Shown here piece by piece: positions 2,586 to 7,580 of a stretch of 64,000 nt of DNA (its first letter is position 1; each line of letters starts with the position of its first letter). The stretch comes from Bacteroidaceae bacterium (GTDB taxonomy: Bacteria > Bacteroidota > Bacteroidia > Bacteroidales > Bacteroidaceae). The notes beneath the pieces were generated by a model, which worked only from the letters and a program-made list of their open reading frames with translations, ran no database searches and was not told the origin of the DNA. The stretch covers positions 46,979 through 110,978 of the forward strand of contig JAFRNY010000026.1 in the NCBI GenBank assembly GCA_017429945.1, read 5' to 3'. The position numbers were made by a program, and so were the translations under genes.

Positions 2586-3647
2586 TCAACAGGATTCTGA
2601 AAACAATCTCTTTATACCCATCAATACTTTGTAGGTCGGTTCTACTGATGTAATATCAGAGAGGACGCCTGAATGGCCGTGTTCAATAGATGTTATGAAA
2701 GAAAGTATCTCGCTGTAGTAGCCTTGCGAAAAGATTTGGTTGTTAGGAAGTGTGGGAGCAGCGTTGTTGCGGGCATAAAGGTATTCTATGTTTTTGTTGT
2801 GTTTGCAGACCTTCTCGCAGGGAATACCAAGGAGGGAGGAGAGCTTTGGCTCGAAGGTCAACTGCTCCATCTGAGAGAGGCGGTAGATTCCTTTTGACGT
2901 ACAGACCTTCAGCGTTTCCTCGGCAGATGTCCAGGCGTAGGCGGTGGATAGTTCGAGAGAGCCGACGATGTGGGGATGACGTAGCATGAGGATATAGGAC
3001 GCCGGGGATACTTGCTGGCAGGCTATGATTTCGGGTTTGCCAAAGAGGAAACAAACGAGGTCGAGGGGATGGATGTAAAGGTCAAGCAATGCATCGCCCT
3101 CTGGATAGTTGCCAGTGAGGTAATGGAGGTCGTAACTAATAAGATGCTCTTTGCATAGACGTTTTTGAAGGATTTGCACGGCAGGGGCATAGCGTTTCTG
3201 CAAGCCTACCACGACTAAGGGCGAGCGATGCTCGGGAATGCCATAAAGACGCTGCTGGTCTATGAGGGCTTTCAGCTCCTGCAGCGATTGGCAGGGTGGC
3301 TTCTCAATGAACAGCGACTTGCCGCTTTGCACAACACGCGAGGCAATGGAGAAATGAGCAGAGGGCGAAGCGGAAACAAATACGCCCTTCACTTCTTCGT
3401 CTTTCAATATCGTGTCAAGTGAGGTCGTTGCTTTCACATGAGGAAACTTCCGTTCTATCAGTCTGGCCTTCCTTTCCGATGTGACACAGATATATTTCAG
3501 AGGTACGCCGAGATAGTGAAGAACAGGATAGAGATTGGTCAGCGAGTGTTGTCCCATGCCCACGAAGGCATAAGAATATTTGTACTTTTGGTCGAGGAAT
3601 CGCTCTGTACGCATCCGTTTGTATCGGTTGATTATTTCCTGTATCAT
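2586..3647 (-). CDS. Gfo/Idh/MocA family oxidoreductase
   Basis: A 353-aa NAD(P)-dependent sugar or small-molecule dehydrogenase-like protein. The Rossmann start reads YAFVGMGQHSLTNLYPVL, degenerate against the usual GxGxxG, and the family's EKPP motif follows the second Rossmann half (LFIEKPPCQS). I place the start at ATG 3647: it overlaps the stop of the upstream radical SAM gene as ATGA, a translational-coupling arrangement, while the longer frame would run back into that gene. The pairing with a radical SAM/SPASM protein suggests a two-step modification of an unknown metabolite. Substrate unknown. Confidence 0.8.
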   Translation of the reverse strand: MIQEIINRYKRMRTERFLDQKYKYSYAFVGMGQHSLTNLYPVLHYLGVPLKYICVTSERKARLIERKFPHVKATTSLDTILKDEEVKGVFVSASPSAHFSIASRVVQSGKSLFIEKPPCQSLQELKALIDQQRLYGIPEHRSPLVVVGLQKRYAPAVQILQKRLCKEHLISYDLHYLTGNYPEGDALLDLYIHPLDLVCFLFGKPEIIACQQVSPASYILMLRHPHIVGSLELSTAYAWTSAEETLKVCTSKGIYRLSQMEQLTFEPKLSSLLGIPCEKVCKHNKNIEYLYARNNAAPTLPNNQIFSQGYYSEILSFITSIEHGHSGVLSDITSVEPTYKVLMGIKRLFSESC

Positions 3648-4702
3648 TGTATTGCTTTTAGATGGTTGCGATAGGTCTGCTGAGGGTCTGCCGTCCACTG
3701 GTATGGTCCGTAGAACTTTTCAATAAGCCATTTGGGCAACAGCCGCTCAAAGTTACGCACGAGGATGATATCATACTTACGATGGAAGTTGATCCAGCAG
3801 TCGTTACAGTTCTTGGAATAGTGGCATTGCGTCTGGCAGGTTGTAGCACCGTTGAAAATCTCGTCGAGCGATTGGCTACGGATGTTTCCCAACACCACAT
3901 CAAGATTCTGGCAGAGCGGCACATCGCCGTTGCTGTGAACGACGAGGCAACTCATGATGCTCCGGCAGTGCAGGCGAAGATGCCCATTTCGCCATTCATC
4001 ATAGAGCGCTACGAAGTCGTAGTTCTCCTGCGTCTGGTGGATGCTTTTGGGTATCTGCTTCACGAAGTCCGATGTCGAGAGCAGTTCGCTCGTTGTATCG
4101 AAGAAAGCCATCGTCCCATAGATGCCAATACGGACATCTATGCCGTAGTACTTGGCAACATCAATAACAAACGCCATGTCATCGAAGTCGTTCCACGGCG
4201 AGAGGCAGAACATCAGCGACAGGGGCACTTCATCTTTCAGGGCCTCAACTACCTCAATCACGCGGTCGTAGCCGTTGCAGCCCCGCATCCGCTGGTAAGT
4301 CTCGCGCCCGCCATCGAGAGAAACGTACAGATGCCGAGGCTGATAGCGGCGGACGACATCGATAACCCGACGGGGCGCGAGACAATTGGAAAGCAGCGTG
4401 TAGTTAGAATGGTGCTCATGAAACCACGCCATGATCTCCTCAGCCTGTGGATGAAGGATGAACTCGCCGCCCTCCAGTCCTATGGTAGTCCGTTTGGTGA
4501 CGCATCGGCTATGCATGATTCGCTTGATGTCTTCGAGAGACAGATGTTCCACCTTCTTCTGCCAGATATTGCAGCGCTTGCAGCGCGACTGACAAGACGT
4601 GGTCGAATAAATCATCAGTTGCGACAGCCGCTTGTGCCGTGGCCTCATGATGTTGTTCAGATAGAGAAGCCCGTTGTAGGCGTAATCGTAAATCGTGTAC
4701 AT
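3644..4702 (-). CDS. Radical SAM protein with SPASM-like C-terminal cysteines
   Basis: A 352-aa radical S-adenosylmethionine enzyme. The 4Fe-4S motif CxxxCxxC appears as CQSRCKRC near residue 40. GLEGGEFILHP and LYVSLDGG follow as the usual SAM-barrel landmarks. A cysteine-rich C-terminal part (SCLVVHSNGDVPLCQN, then TCQTQCHYSKNCNDCW) looks like a SPASM/twitch auxiliary cluster domain. The start is ATG 4702; the frame opens five codons earlier at a TTG. Its stop overlaps the start of the Gfo/Idh/MocA gene by four bases. SPASM proteins modify peptides or small molecules; no precursor peptide is visible beside it. Confidence 0.82.
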   Translation of the reverse strand: MYTIYDYAYNGLLYLNNIMRPRHKRLSQLMIYSTTSCQSRCKRCNIWQKKVEHLSLEDIKRIMHSRCVTKRTTIGLEGGEFILHPQAEEIMAWFHEHHSNYTLLSNCLAPRRVIDVVRRYQPRHLYVSLDGGRETYQRMRGCNGYDRVIEVVEALKDEVPLSLMFCLSPWNDFDDMAFVIDVAKYYGIDVRIGIYGTMAFFDTTSELLSTSDFVKQIPKSIHQTQENYDFVALYDEWRNGHLRLHCRSIMSCLVVHSNGDVPLCQNLDVVLGNIRSQSLDEIFNGATTCQTQCHYSKNCNDCWINFHRKYDIILVRNFERLLPKWLIEKFYGPYQWTADPQQTYRNHLKAIQ

Positions 4703-4774
4703 AAAAAATCGTTGCAATTTTGTTTCTAATTATAAAGTCCAAAATTGCAACGAATGACTGCACAGGGCGGTAGG

Positions 4775-5335
4775 TTATTTTATCAGTTTGCCATTGCTTT
4801 CCAGGTATTTCAGGAACGCTTCCCATTGCGGGGCGCGGCGTTGGCGATTGGCCTTTACACGCTCATCGTCGATGAACTGAGGGGGATAACAGTCGTAGAG
4901 ATAGTAGCGGCCATCGTCGATGACCTCGTCGTCGATCTTTCCGCAACAGAGTACGAGGTCATCGAACATCTGGCTATTGATGAGACCGACGTAAGTAGCC
5001 CCGCCAGAAAAAAGGTATTCGTCATCGAGATAGAAGTCTATCTCTGTAGTCAACGGAATCTTCTCACGTAATGGCTCCATCGTGTCGCGGAAGCGTAGTT
5101 CGCGGGTGACGGGGTCGAACCATTCGATGTCATTATCGGTGAAAAGAACTCCTTCTGCGTCAGCATCGGAGCGTGTTCTAGGCTCACCGATTCCAATGGC
5201 AAAGAGCGCAGCTTTTTCTACAGGACAGGTCGTAAAAGGCTTCTCGGGTTCGTTACCGTCAAGGCTGCAGGCTGTCGTCGCTGTGCCGGCAATGGCTATC
5301 GCCATCATCCAGGCAAGAGGGCTGTAATGTTTCAT
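4775..5335 (-). CDS. Putative lipoprotein, unknown function
   Basis: A 186-aa protein with an N-terminal hydrophobic stretch and a lipobox ending ATTAC, so probably lipid-anchored. The mature part is acidic (DADAEGVLFTDNDIEWFD) with no family I recognise. It starts 70 bp downstream of the sigma factor-barrel fusion on the same strand and may be co-transcribed with it, possibly as a target or partner. It lies upstream of the radical SAM pair but is separated from it by about 70 bp. Confidence 0.6.
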   Translation of the reverse strand: MKHYSPLAWMMAIAIAGTATTACSLDGNEPEKPFTTCPVEKAALFAIGIGEPRTRSDADAEGVLFTDNDIEWFDPVTRELRFRDTMEPLREKIPLTTEIDFYLDDEYLFSGGATYVGLINSQMFDDLVLCCGKIDDEVIDDGRYYLYDCYPPQFIDDERVKANRQRRAPQWEAFLKYLESNGKLIK

Positions 5336-5405
5336 ATTCCTTAGAGCTTAAAATATTGGACTATCTATTTATATAGTCCTTTGAAGCATGAAAAGACTGC
5401 ACAGA

Positions 5406-7127
5406 TTACCAAGTAAATCTGATTCCCAGCGGCAGGGAGAAGTTGAACGGATGCTCCGTGCGGTAGGTCTCAATGTCAGTCCTCATCGGGATATAATATC
5501 GCAGGCTTGGTTCGGCGAAGAAACCAATGCTGGGTGTCAGGTTGTATTGCAGGCCCAGACCAGTTCCGAGTGACCACTGCCATGGAGCACGGATGGTGGT
5601 CTTGTCGGTAGCCTCCAACAGGCCATGCAGGTAGTAACTTGTGTTGAGTGGCGAGTAGAGAGGAATCTCCGTGGTAACGCCGATACTTCCGTAGAGGCTC
5701 CACGCCTTTCTATTATATATATTGCAGATGCCCTTCACGGGGATGCCGAGGTAGTGTATGATCTGCTGTTCATTGATGGTATTACCGTTTGAACCCATCT
5801 CAAATTCCGACTTCAGCCTGCTGTAGCTCAGTCCGGTTTCCAGCGCGAAGCGATGATTCAACTGATACTTCAATGCCAACGAGAAGCCCGCGGGCATGTA
5901 GTGGTGGCTCTTGCGGACAATCTTGTCTGTGCCTGTTCCAAAGGCATCACCGGCATTGTTCAGAGCGATGTTCATAATGACGCTGCGAGTCTTGTCGCTC
6001 ACCGCGCTTGGATGAGTTGACAGATAGACGGCATAATCCGACCAGTTGTCAATGCTGCTCGGGATAATCGGAGTTGGTGACGGTCCTGGCGTCGACTGTG
6101 CAGCTGACGGTGCGGGCTTAAAGCTGAACGGCTGGCTATAGCGGTTCTGTTCATCAAACTGACTATTGTATGCCAGTTCTAACGACCATTTCTTATCGTT
6201 ATTTGTACTGACGGTTGACTTTTCGGGGAACAAGTCAGCTATATCATTATGTGGAATTTCCATATTGTGTATCACCTTTGTTGTATCGCCCGATATTGTG
6301 TCGGCATCTGTCTGCTCCTGCGCAACCATATTTGTCAAAGAGTCTGGCATAATGGAATCAAGCGCTTGAGCAATGAAAGACTGTAGTTTGTCAATCGGGG
6401 TATGATGCATGGGGATATGAACGACGACAGGCTTCTGGGGATGCTCTTCCGAGGATTCACTTGTATGTGCATTTAGCTTTGGTGTATCCATCTGCTTGGC
6501 AATGACGGGCTTTGACGCATGGTGCTCACCTACGCCTTTTTTCTTGAACAAAAAGAAAGTGAGCGGTATGAGCAGCAACAGAAGTACGGCTACCCTATAC
6601 TGCCGCATCATCTTGCGGAGCATCTTCTTAGCCCGCGACAGTTGCGAGGATGACGAATGTGGCTCGATGCCCAGCGTATCGGCAATCTCCTTGTGCGACA
6701 ACCCTTCGAACACAGAGAGTCGGAACACCTTGCCATAGCCCTCCGGCAGACGGTCAATGAGCTGCTGCACATCGTCCCATGGCACGCCTCTAACTTCGCT
6801 CTCTCCTCCAGGTATCTGCAAATGCTCAGCTTCCTCTAGTTGCACAAAAGTCATCTTTGCCAGATGGTCTTTATATTTCGATGCAACATTTCTCGTTATC
6901 GACATCATCCATGCCTCTGCTTTCCTGTCATCGCGCAGTTTGTCAAAAGAGGTAAAGATAATCACGAACGCGTCATGCAATACATCGCTGATGGCTTGTT
7001 CATCGCTGACATACCGACGGCATACACCCCTCATCCGTTGGGCGTATGCCTTATACAGAGCTCCGAGGGCATCCGCATCCCCCTGTCTGCACCGTTCTAT
7101 CAACCGTGTTATCTCCATCGAAAACAT
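5406..7127 (-). CDS. ECF sigma factor fused to a membrane helix and C-terminal outer-membrane barrel
   Basis: A single 573-aa frame joining parts normally on separate proteins. Residues about 5-75 are sigma-70 region 2 (ISDVLHDAFVIIFTSFDKL). Residues about 118-172 are region 4 with the helix-turn-helix LSHKEIADTLGIEPHSSSSQ. One hydrophobic helix follows (about 178-194, VAVLLLLLIPLTFFLF), then KKK. A Pro/Ser/Thr-rich linker runs from about 200 to 405. The remainder has alternating beta-strand character (MPAGFSLALKYQLNHRFALE and YGSIGVTTEIPLY) and ends in RFTW, the aromatic C-terminal pattern of outer-membrane barrels. There is no internal stop. In Bacteroidetes an ECF sigma gene is often followed by a separate TM-plus-barrel gene; fusion with it is the simplest origin. 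The protein may be a membrane-tethered or proteolytically released sigma factor spanning the envelope. Confidence 0.85.
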   Translation of the reverse strand: MFSMEITRLIERCRQGDADALGALYKAYAQRMRGVCRRYVSDEQAISDVLHDAFVIIFTSFDKLRDDRKAEAWMMSITRNVASKYKDHLAKMTFVQLEEAEHLQIPGGESEVRGVPWDDVQQLIDRLPEGYGKVFRLSVFEGLSHKEIADTLGIEPHSSSSQLSRAKKMLRKMMRQYRVAVLLLLLIPLTFFLFKKKGVGEHHASKPVIAKQMDTPKLNAHTSESSEEHPQKPVVVHIPMHHTPIDKLQSFIAQALDSIMPDSLTNMVAQEQTDADTISGDTTKVIHNMEIPHNDIADLFPEKSTVSTNNDKKWSLELAYNSQFDEQNRYSQPFSFKPAPSAAQSTPGPSPTPIIPSSIDNWSDYAVYLSTHPSAVSDKTRSVIMNIALNNAGDAFGTGTDKIVRKSHHYMPAGFSLALKYQLNHRFALETGLSYSRLKSEFEMGSNGNTINEQQIIHYLGIPVKGICNIYNRKAWSLYGSIGVTTEIPLYSPLNTSYYLHGLLEATDKTTIRAPWQWSLGTGLGLQYNLTPSIGFFAEPSLRYYIPMRTDIETYRTEHPFNFSLPLGIRFTW

Positions 7128-7580
7128 GATGTCTCTATCTCTTATGTCCGAAAATTATGAAAAGACTGCATGGAATAGTAGCTTTTTTCCAATGAAACCT
7201 CATTATGGCTCCGCTTTGCGGGTGCAAAGGTAGTCTTTATTCTGCATAACACGTTTCTTTTCCCATAGGATAGGACTTAACTTCAGACAAGATTTGCATA
7301 AATCGCACGTGCGAAACATCGGATTCGTACGATGGCATGCTGGTTCACGCCCTGGGCATCGGCAGCACCGCGCGACCAAAGCAAACGATTTTGCGGTGAT
7401 TTCTGAAAAAAATGCAGCCCAACTGATTTTTATCGCCTGATTATTTGGCCAGTACGAGATTTTTCACTACTTTTGCAGCGCAAACGTGAGGAAGCGAGGG
7501 GCCGCCAAGGTTCTTCGCTTCTCGCTTAAAAGACCTTACACATCAAAAAATTATTATACCTTTTTTGTAAGTAACCTGAC
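7128..7580. promoter_or_regulatory. Divergent intergenic region between the sigma fusion and rimP
   Basis: About 450 bp without a gene. Facing left, a TACCTTTG -7 element (CAAAGGTA at 7225-7232 on this strand) precedes the sigma-fusion start by about 100 bp; no clear -33 partner is seen. Facing right is the rimP promoter described separately. The middle, about 7260-7440, shows no other recognisable structure. Confidence 0.5.
7445..7476 (+). promoter_or_regulatory. Bacteroidetes-type promoter of the rimP-nusA-infB cluster
   Basis: A -33 TTTG at 7445-7448 and a -7 TACTTTTG at 7469-7476, separated by 20 nt, match the consensus TTTG-N19-23-TAnnTTTG. Transcription would begin just downstream and give a leader of roughly 95-100 nt before rimP. 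Confidence 0.75.

Follow-up and report, generated by a model that had tools for sequence, protein, structure and literature searches.

The window analysed here, a stretch of 64 kb, comes from a genome of 2.96 Mb in 92 contigs that is 82.4% complete. It carries a minus-strand gene whose frame opens with an ATG at 7127, closes with a stop at 5406 and encodes 573 residues with zero internal stops, so that the single uninterrupted frame holding all parts of the protein, as claimed in the first-pass annotation, is borne out; that annotation gave no strand for it. The gene joins an ECF sigma factor through a membrane helix and a tether to an outer-membrane barrel, and is followed in the same direction by genes for a small lipoprotein-like protein, a radical SAM/SPASM protein and an oxidoreductase, with three promoter-like sites and a conserved hairpin between them (Table 1). 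The genes on the divergent side, which we take to be rimP and nusA, have a synteny match in none of 80 relatives' loci, 14 of which hold less than 1 kb of upstream sequence.

Table 1. Features of the fusion locus (positions in the window; residues are those of the fusion protein)
Feature	Position	Strand	Basis
Promoter-like site 1, TGCAGTCTTTT-N10-GGAC, ending 18 nt before the ATG of the fusion	7146..7170	-	motif search
Dma3-type sigma-TM-tether-barrel gene, 573 aa	5406..7127	-	frame, Pfam, relatives, hydrophobicity
ECF sigma part with regions 2 and 4, residues 4-176	6600..7118	-	Pfam; PDB profile matches to ECF sigma factors; dN/dS 0.117
Membrane helix, about residues 177-195	6543..6599	-	hydrophobicity, conservation
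Periplasmic tether, about residues 197-312	6192..6539	-	conservation, dN/dS, composition; boundaries estimated
Outer-membrane barrel, about residues 313-573, long first loop	5409..6191	-	Pfam 415-547, conservation; start at 313 estimated
Promoter-like site 2, TGCAGTCTTTT-N11-GGAC, between fusion stop and lipoprotein	5376..5401	-	motif search
Small lipoprotein-like protein, 186 aa, probable target	4775..5335	-	no Pfam/NCBIfam match at E 1
Promoter-like site 3, variant TGCAGTCATTC, before radical-SAM gene	4737..4762	-	motif search
Conserved hairpin, -10-like half of site 3 in loop	4708..4754	-	covariation over aligned sequences
Radical SAM/SPASM protein, probable target, 4702 being the likelier start	3644..4717	-	Pfam
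Gfo/Idh/MocA-type oxidoreductase, next same-direction gene	2586..3698	-	Pfam

The two ends of the protein are recognized by Pfam above the cut-off (Sigma70_r2 at 24–85, Sigma70_r4_2 at 119–170 and OMP_b-brl_2 at 415–547), and the sigma part also exceeds the NCBIfam cut-off for sigma70-ECF, which together identify it as an ECF sigma factor. Past the sigma part, the most hydrophobic 19-residue stretch begins at about residue 176, with a mean Kyte–Doolittle value of 2.01 (frame offset 9), and the helix includes a proline, P188, that is conserved in at least 90% of 48 aligned rows. The C-terminal residue, W573, is invariant in these rows, and the fusion protein ends RFTW. When the 48-row profile was compared with solved chains at an E-value of 0.01, 15 matches were obtained, all on the sigma side, and none of them covers the barrel half; Pfam and conservation support the identification of the latter as a barrel. 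The claimed sigma regions 2 and 4, membrane helix and C-terminal barrel thus gain Pfam and hydrophobicity evidence, with the barrel standing apart from any solved-chain match.

The first-pass annotation placed a Pro/Ser/Thr-rich linker of ∼200 residues between helix and barrel. A tether is present, but two details of that description hold less well. A strand-like conserved stretch at 313–323, in which W314 and A319 are invariant across the 48 rows, suggests that the barrel begins near residue 313 and has a long first loop; because this stretch stands ahead of the loop, the tether is probably ∼115 residues long (197–312). Its enrichment in proline, serine and threonine is also weak, at 25% compared with 13% in the sigma part and 26% in the barrel. 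No periplasmic anti-sigma domain was found after the helix by Pfam at E 1, where barrel families matched instead, and the protein is thus not of the IutY type (ECF243). Judged by sequence, the helix, long tether and C-terminal barrel are those of a Dma3-type protein, and both Pfam and the solved-chain profile matches show that this chain begins with the sigma domain.

Could two adjacent genes have been joined through a sequencing or annotation error? The first-pass annotation had proposed a search for homologues of the same full-length architecture and had named a frameshift or stop between the halves as grounds for abandoning the idea. Among the best 80 of 108 relatives, 75 are full length in one frame; two (L023 and L083) carry one in-frame stop each, and three are partial, L062 and L071 lying at contig ends and L066 missing the first 48 residues. 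These relatives are mostly metagenome-assembled genomes from the rumen or other ruminant gut, assigned to Prevotella, Prevotellaceae, Bacteroidaceae or Bacteroidales. Median pairwise dN/dS is 0.117 for the sigma part, 0.165 for the TM segment, 0.241 for the linker and 0.13 for the barrel (585–660 pairs kept after identity and saturation filters, with the three partial relatives omitted), and all four parts of the fusion are under purifying selection. A joined sigma–barrel frame is also present in at least 22 of 121 sampled genomes of the window's family (matches at E 1e-20). Since the architecture recurs in one frame and dN/dS is low throughout, we exclude a frameshift artefact and assign this explanation a vanishingly small probability.

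The family sample also contains incomplete and irregular cases. Two genomes have the gene cut by a contig end (G272 and G295), one has a short N-terminal match only (G305), and in two (G059 and G269) the halves lie in different frames. A split of this kind between the sigma-TM part and the barrel, which may reflect decay, error or frameshift, is recorded at L153 (1859–3411) and L176 (1498–3206), in two genomes that belong to a single other genus. Three genomes (G206, G255 and G247) carry two fused genes each. Eight further candidate fusions (G105, G109, G103, G250, G302, G254, G268 and G232) were rejected as read-through frames, in which adjacent sigma and barrel genes are parted by a stop.

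The window's own genome encodes a two-gene version as well (L002), a separate pair of Dma/Das layout in which a 169-aa sigma factor overlaps a 485-aa helix and barrel protein whose barrel is 38% identical to that of the fusion. The fusion is the only one of 10 own-genome matches to the fusion query (E 1e-3) that lies on its contig, C12, and it has no separate cognate sigma gene beside it, as in the Dma3 type. The fused and separate forms differ at the point where the helix begins. In every frame classed as fused, the helix starts −2 to +6 residues from the end of the sigma domain, whereas in 35 separate partner frames it starts at residue 45–101 of the stop-to-stop frame. The segment ahead of the helix in the separate partners is mostly alike by eye (YSEP.P..LW..LE..L), with the own-genome partner departing from the pattern. 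The fused form lacks this cytoplasmic (anti-sigma) segment, its helix following directly after region 4, and so the N-terminal anti-sigma segment of the Dma1/Dma2 type is absent from it. A second difference lies ahead of the main barrel match: a W..Y..YL-like pattern, chosen after the window had been seen, is present there in 16 of 25 fused frames versus 0 of 37 barrel-only frames, two of the latter being split fused-type genes.

In a tree of the sigma domains built from the genome-search loci, 28 fused-type rows (24 joined frames and four cut or split rows that we assigned to this type) fall on one side of a branch and 51 others on the other side, with support of 100/100. Five long-branch single sigma factors were omitted from this tree after they had been seen in a first one; with them included, the 28 rows still group, with support of 90. 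The fused-type sigma domains thus form one clade. A single origin is not what the barrel tree shows: its fused rows are not one group, and it implies five changes, at least three of them forced by starred branches and some arising from two split rows labelled as separate. These data bear on the idea that the halves act apart after constitutive cleavage and share a polypeptide only to be made in equal amounts. L153 and L176, which encode the halves in different frames, could be read this way. However, the tether is under purifying selection, the fused-type sigma parts are one clade and the separate pairs are arranged otherwise, with the cytoplasmic segment on the barrel protein; we regard constitutive cleavage as improbable.

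The DNA around the gene carries a shared promoter-like motif, defined in its strict form as TGCAGTCTTT-N9-13-GGAC. Within the window, TGCAGTCNTT occurs only at the three sites of Table 1. A GCAGTCTT-like stretch is found in 75 of 76 upstream regions (the window and 75 relatives) at a nearly constant distance from the ATG, 42–44 nt in 69 of them and 51–52 nt in six whose start was called further in, and is followed by GGACT and then by A/T-rich sequence with AGA. The 80 relatives' loci (744,649 bases, both strands) hold 117 strict sites, 62 of them within 70 nt before the fusion and the other 55 between 60 nt upstream and 1500 nt downstream of its stop, mostly 3–4 nt past it, although many of these loci are close kin and the counts are not independent. 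The strict motif occurs nowhere else in the 744,649 bases, and the reversed control gave none.

A similar restriction is seen in whole genomes. The window's own genome has two strict matches, both at the fusion locus, with none in the control; the variant at site 3 falls outside the strict pattern, and a looser pattern gives four matches (two at the fusion locus) versus five in the control, which is background level. In 121 family genomes, 17 strict matches comprise 11 at fusion loci and six away from them, compared with one in the control. Four of the six were inspected, and three of these (L227, L228 and L229, the last inside a long open frame) were set aside as having no clear sign of function. 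The fourth, at about position 1019 of L226 (G310:C38), is a complete copy that includes the A/T-rich part but has no clear gene behind it; it may be what is left of a second fusion locus.

The family sample includes 23 fused loci, five being of the window's own type; 19 of the 23 have an upstream site, 17 have a site within 70 nt after the stop and 14 have both. GGAC is present at both places in four of these 14 and an ATCT core, by eye, in eight, with no close match in L198 and L199. The −10-like half is thus not the same in other genera, and in most cases the two places differ in concert, as would be expected if the fused sigma factor reads both sites. One of the 23 loci (L191) has neither site, and three (L170, L172 and L194) gave no upstream match. 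A TGCAGTCTTTT copy is found ∼1.36 kb upstream at L191 (G270:C7), before a lipoprotein-like frame of 425 aa. Of the 29 sigma frames at L153–L203 that have no barrel, three being cut or split fused-type genes, 13 have TGCAGTATTT upstream instead. At the separate sigma/barrel pair of the window's own genome (L225, contig C92), the 250 nt before the sigma gene contain no TGCAGTNTTT and one TGCAGTTCGG lies ∼220 nt away.

The positions of the downstream sites point to particular genes. Of the 59 loci in which a lipoprotein frame was called, 53 have a strict site downstream of the fusion, versus two (L013 and L081) of the 21 without such a frame, and L013 does contain a tblastn match to the lipoprotein. 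In three relatives (L042, L050 and L052) the lipoprotein gene has shifted and taken the site along; in four others (L049, L051, L067 and L073) it stays behind the fusion, with the called lipoprotein start 135–310 nt away if the starts are right. A relaxed site lies within 150 nt before the radical-SAM gene at 55 of the 66 starts found, and relaxed sites in the relatives total 182 over all places, compared with two in the reversed control. Among the listed relatives that lack the lipoprotein, starts similar to that of the oxidoreductase come after the radical-SAM gene. Given these placements, the lipoprotein and radical-SAM genes are probable targets of the fused sigma factor. In some genera (L173, L174, L190 and L196), the second motif copy is succeeded, immediately behind the fusion, by a different gene where others have the radical-SAM gene; by eye its start reads like that of a methyltransferase.

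The hairpin at site 3 has 12 pairs, with 96.6% of cells paired over 34 sequences, and five pairs have changed on both sides (24 cells); its pairing score was reached by none of 500 shuffles. The alignment comprises the window and 33 of 46 distinct sequences, the other 13 having been dropped, six of them because the pattern caught an inner GCAG. The register was taken from a slid control, and a register one column off scored no better than its shuffles. In the other seven of the 13 dropped sequences (L011, L013, L028, L029, L072, L081 and L087) the hairpin is cut, replaced or absent. It is perhaps the terminator of the preceding gene, or an attenuator.

We propose, with a probability of roughly 0.65, that the fusion is a Dma3-type, one-protein trans-envelope switch that is freed by proteolysis and activates itself and its neighbours. 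The sigma part would lie in the cytoplasm, anchored to the inner membrane through the helix that follows it, and the barrel would lie in the outer membrane; the idea of one protein spanning this distance, put forward in the first-pass annotation, is supported alongside the architecture. A signal at the barrel, or failed barrel assembly, would expose the tether to a periplasmic protease, after which an RseP-type site-2 protease would cut within the helix, where P188 would break the helical structure. The freed sigma part would then activate its own promoter and the lipoprotein and radical-SAM/oxidoreductase genes. The window's own genome encodes one M50 and five S41 peptidases, families that are general, the controls being positive in 14 of 14 genomes for M50 and in 10 of 14 for S41.

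Alternatively, the sigma factor may work while anchored, the barrel altering its activity by pulling or twisting the helix, in the manner of membrane-bound regulators such as ToxR and CadC. The sigma part is complete and constrained and the cleavage site is only putative, both of which are compatible with this arrangement. However, the helix begins immediately where region 4 stops, which should hinder −35 binding, and IutY needs cleavage in the accounts excerpted from PMC5411451 and PMC8999054. Activity in the anchored state is therefore unlikely in our estimation, if less so than constitutive cleavage. Release by proteolysis in two cuts is plausible by analogy with IutY. A more far-reaching version of the proteolytic switch, which we advance tentatively and at somewhat short of even odds, is that the sigma factor serves as its own receptor and its own inhibitor: having no anti-sigma domain, it would be kept silent solely through the attachment of its DNA-reading end to the inner membrane, and on release by an outer-membrane event would fire a small local regulon (itself, the lipoprotein and the radical-SAM operon) with co-evolved promoters. 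The missing anti-sigma segment thus poses the question of whether a membrane helix is enough to keep a sigma factor silent while a single chain allows it to be switched from the outer membrane, and the shared motif provides a concrete regulon that is open to testing.

The fusion was first presented as the novelty of this locus, a claim that does not hold: Dma3 of Bacteroides thetaiotaomicron, encoded at bt_2778-2779, is described in the excerpted text of PMC13088901 as a Dma protein that carries a sigma domain of its own. Like the window protein, Dma3 has, according to that excerpt, an N-terminal sigma domain, a membrane helix, a disordered tether and a C-terminal barrel, with no cognate sigma gene adjacent; the likeness is one of description, and the fusions analysed here come from other genera, probably rumen-type Prevotellaceae kin. 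Deletion of dma3 in dma1 and dma2 mutants left vesicle production unchanged (PMC13088901, same excerpt). Iron-stimulon tables in the portion of PMC10434189 available include BT_2778 as a sigma-70 factor (2.3-fold) and give it as present in B. thetaiotaomicron only, in a comparison of three species that included Prevotella intermedia; from the sigma-70 annotation we infer that BT_2778 is the Dma3 gene. Searches of the literature (general, ECF21 and promoter motifs of this kind, with the founding Dma paper outside their scope) returned no description of the motif. Because the fusion is known as Dma3 and the motif was not found described in the literature searched, the regulon prediction from the surrounding DNA is what is added here, together with the fused-type sigma clade and the lack of an anti-sigma segment.

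Comparison with other systems, as far as the excerpted sources describe them, places the fusion among several partial likenesses. The Dma1/Das1 and Dma2/Das2 sigma/anti-sigma pairs, with ECF21 as the class used for Das proteins (PMC13088901), share its helix–tether–barrel half, but their sigma factor is separate and their barrel protein has the N-terminal anti-sigma segment that the fused form lacks. IutY of Pseudomonas putida (ECF243) similarly joins a sigma factor, one membrane helix and a periplasmic part in one protein, but the periplasmic part is a C-terminal anti-sigma domain, the outer-membrane receptor is separate and there is no barrel (PMC5411451). Its sigma domain is freed by Prc and RseP (PMC5411451), and a 2022 review names it as the only ECF sigma factor whose proteolytic activation had been characterized by experiment (PMC8999054). 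ECF52 (SCO4117) of Streptomyces coelicolor resembles the fusion in its order of sigma factor, membrane helix, proline-rich part and outer domain, but has zinc-finger (anti-sigma) and carbohydrate-binding domains in place of a barrel (PMC8999054).
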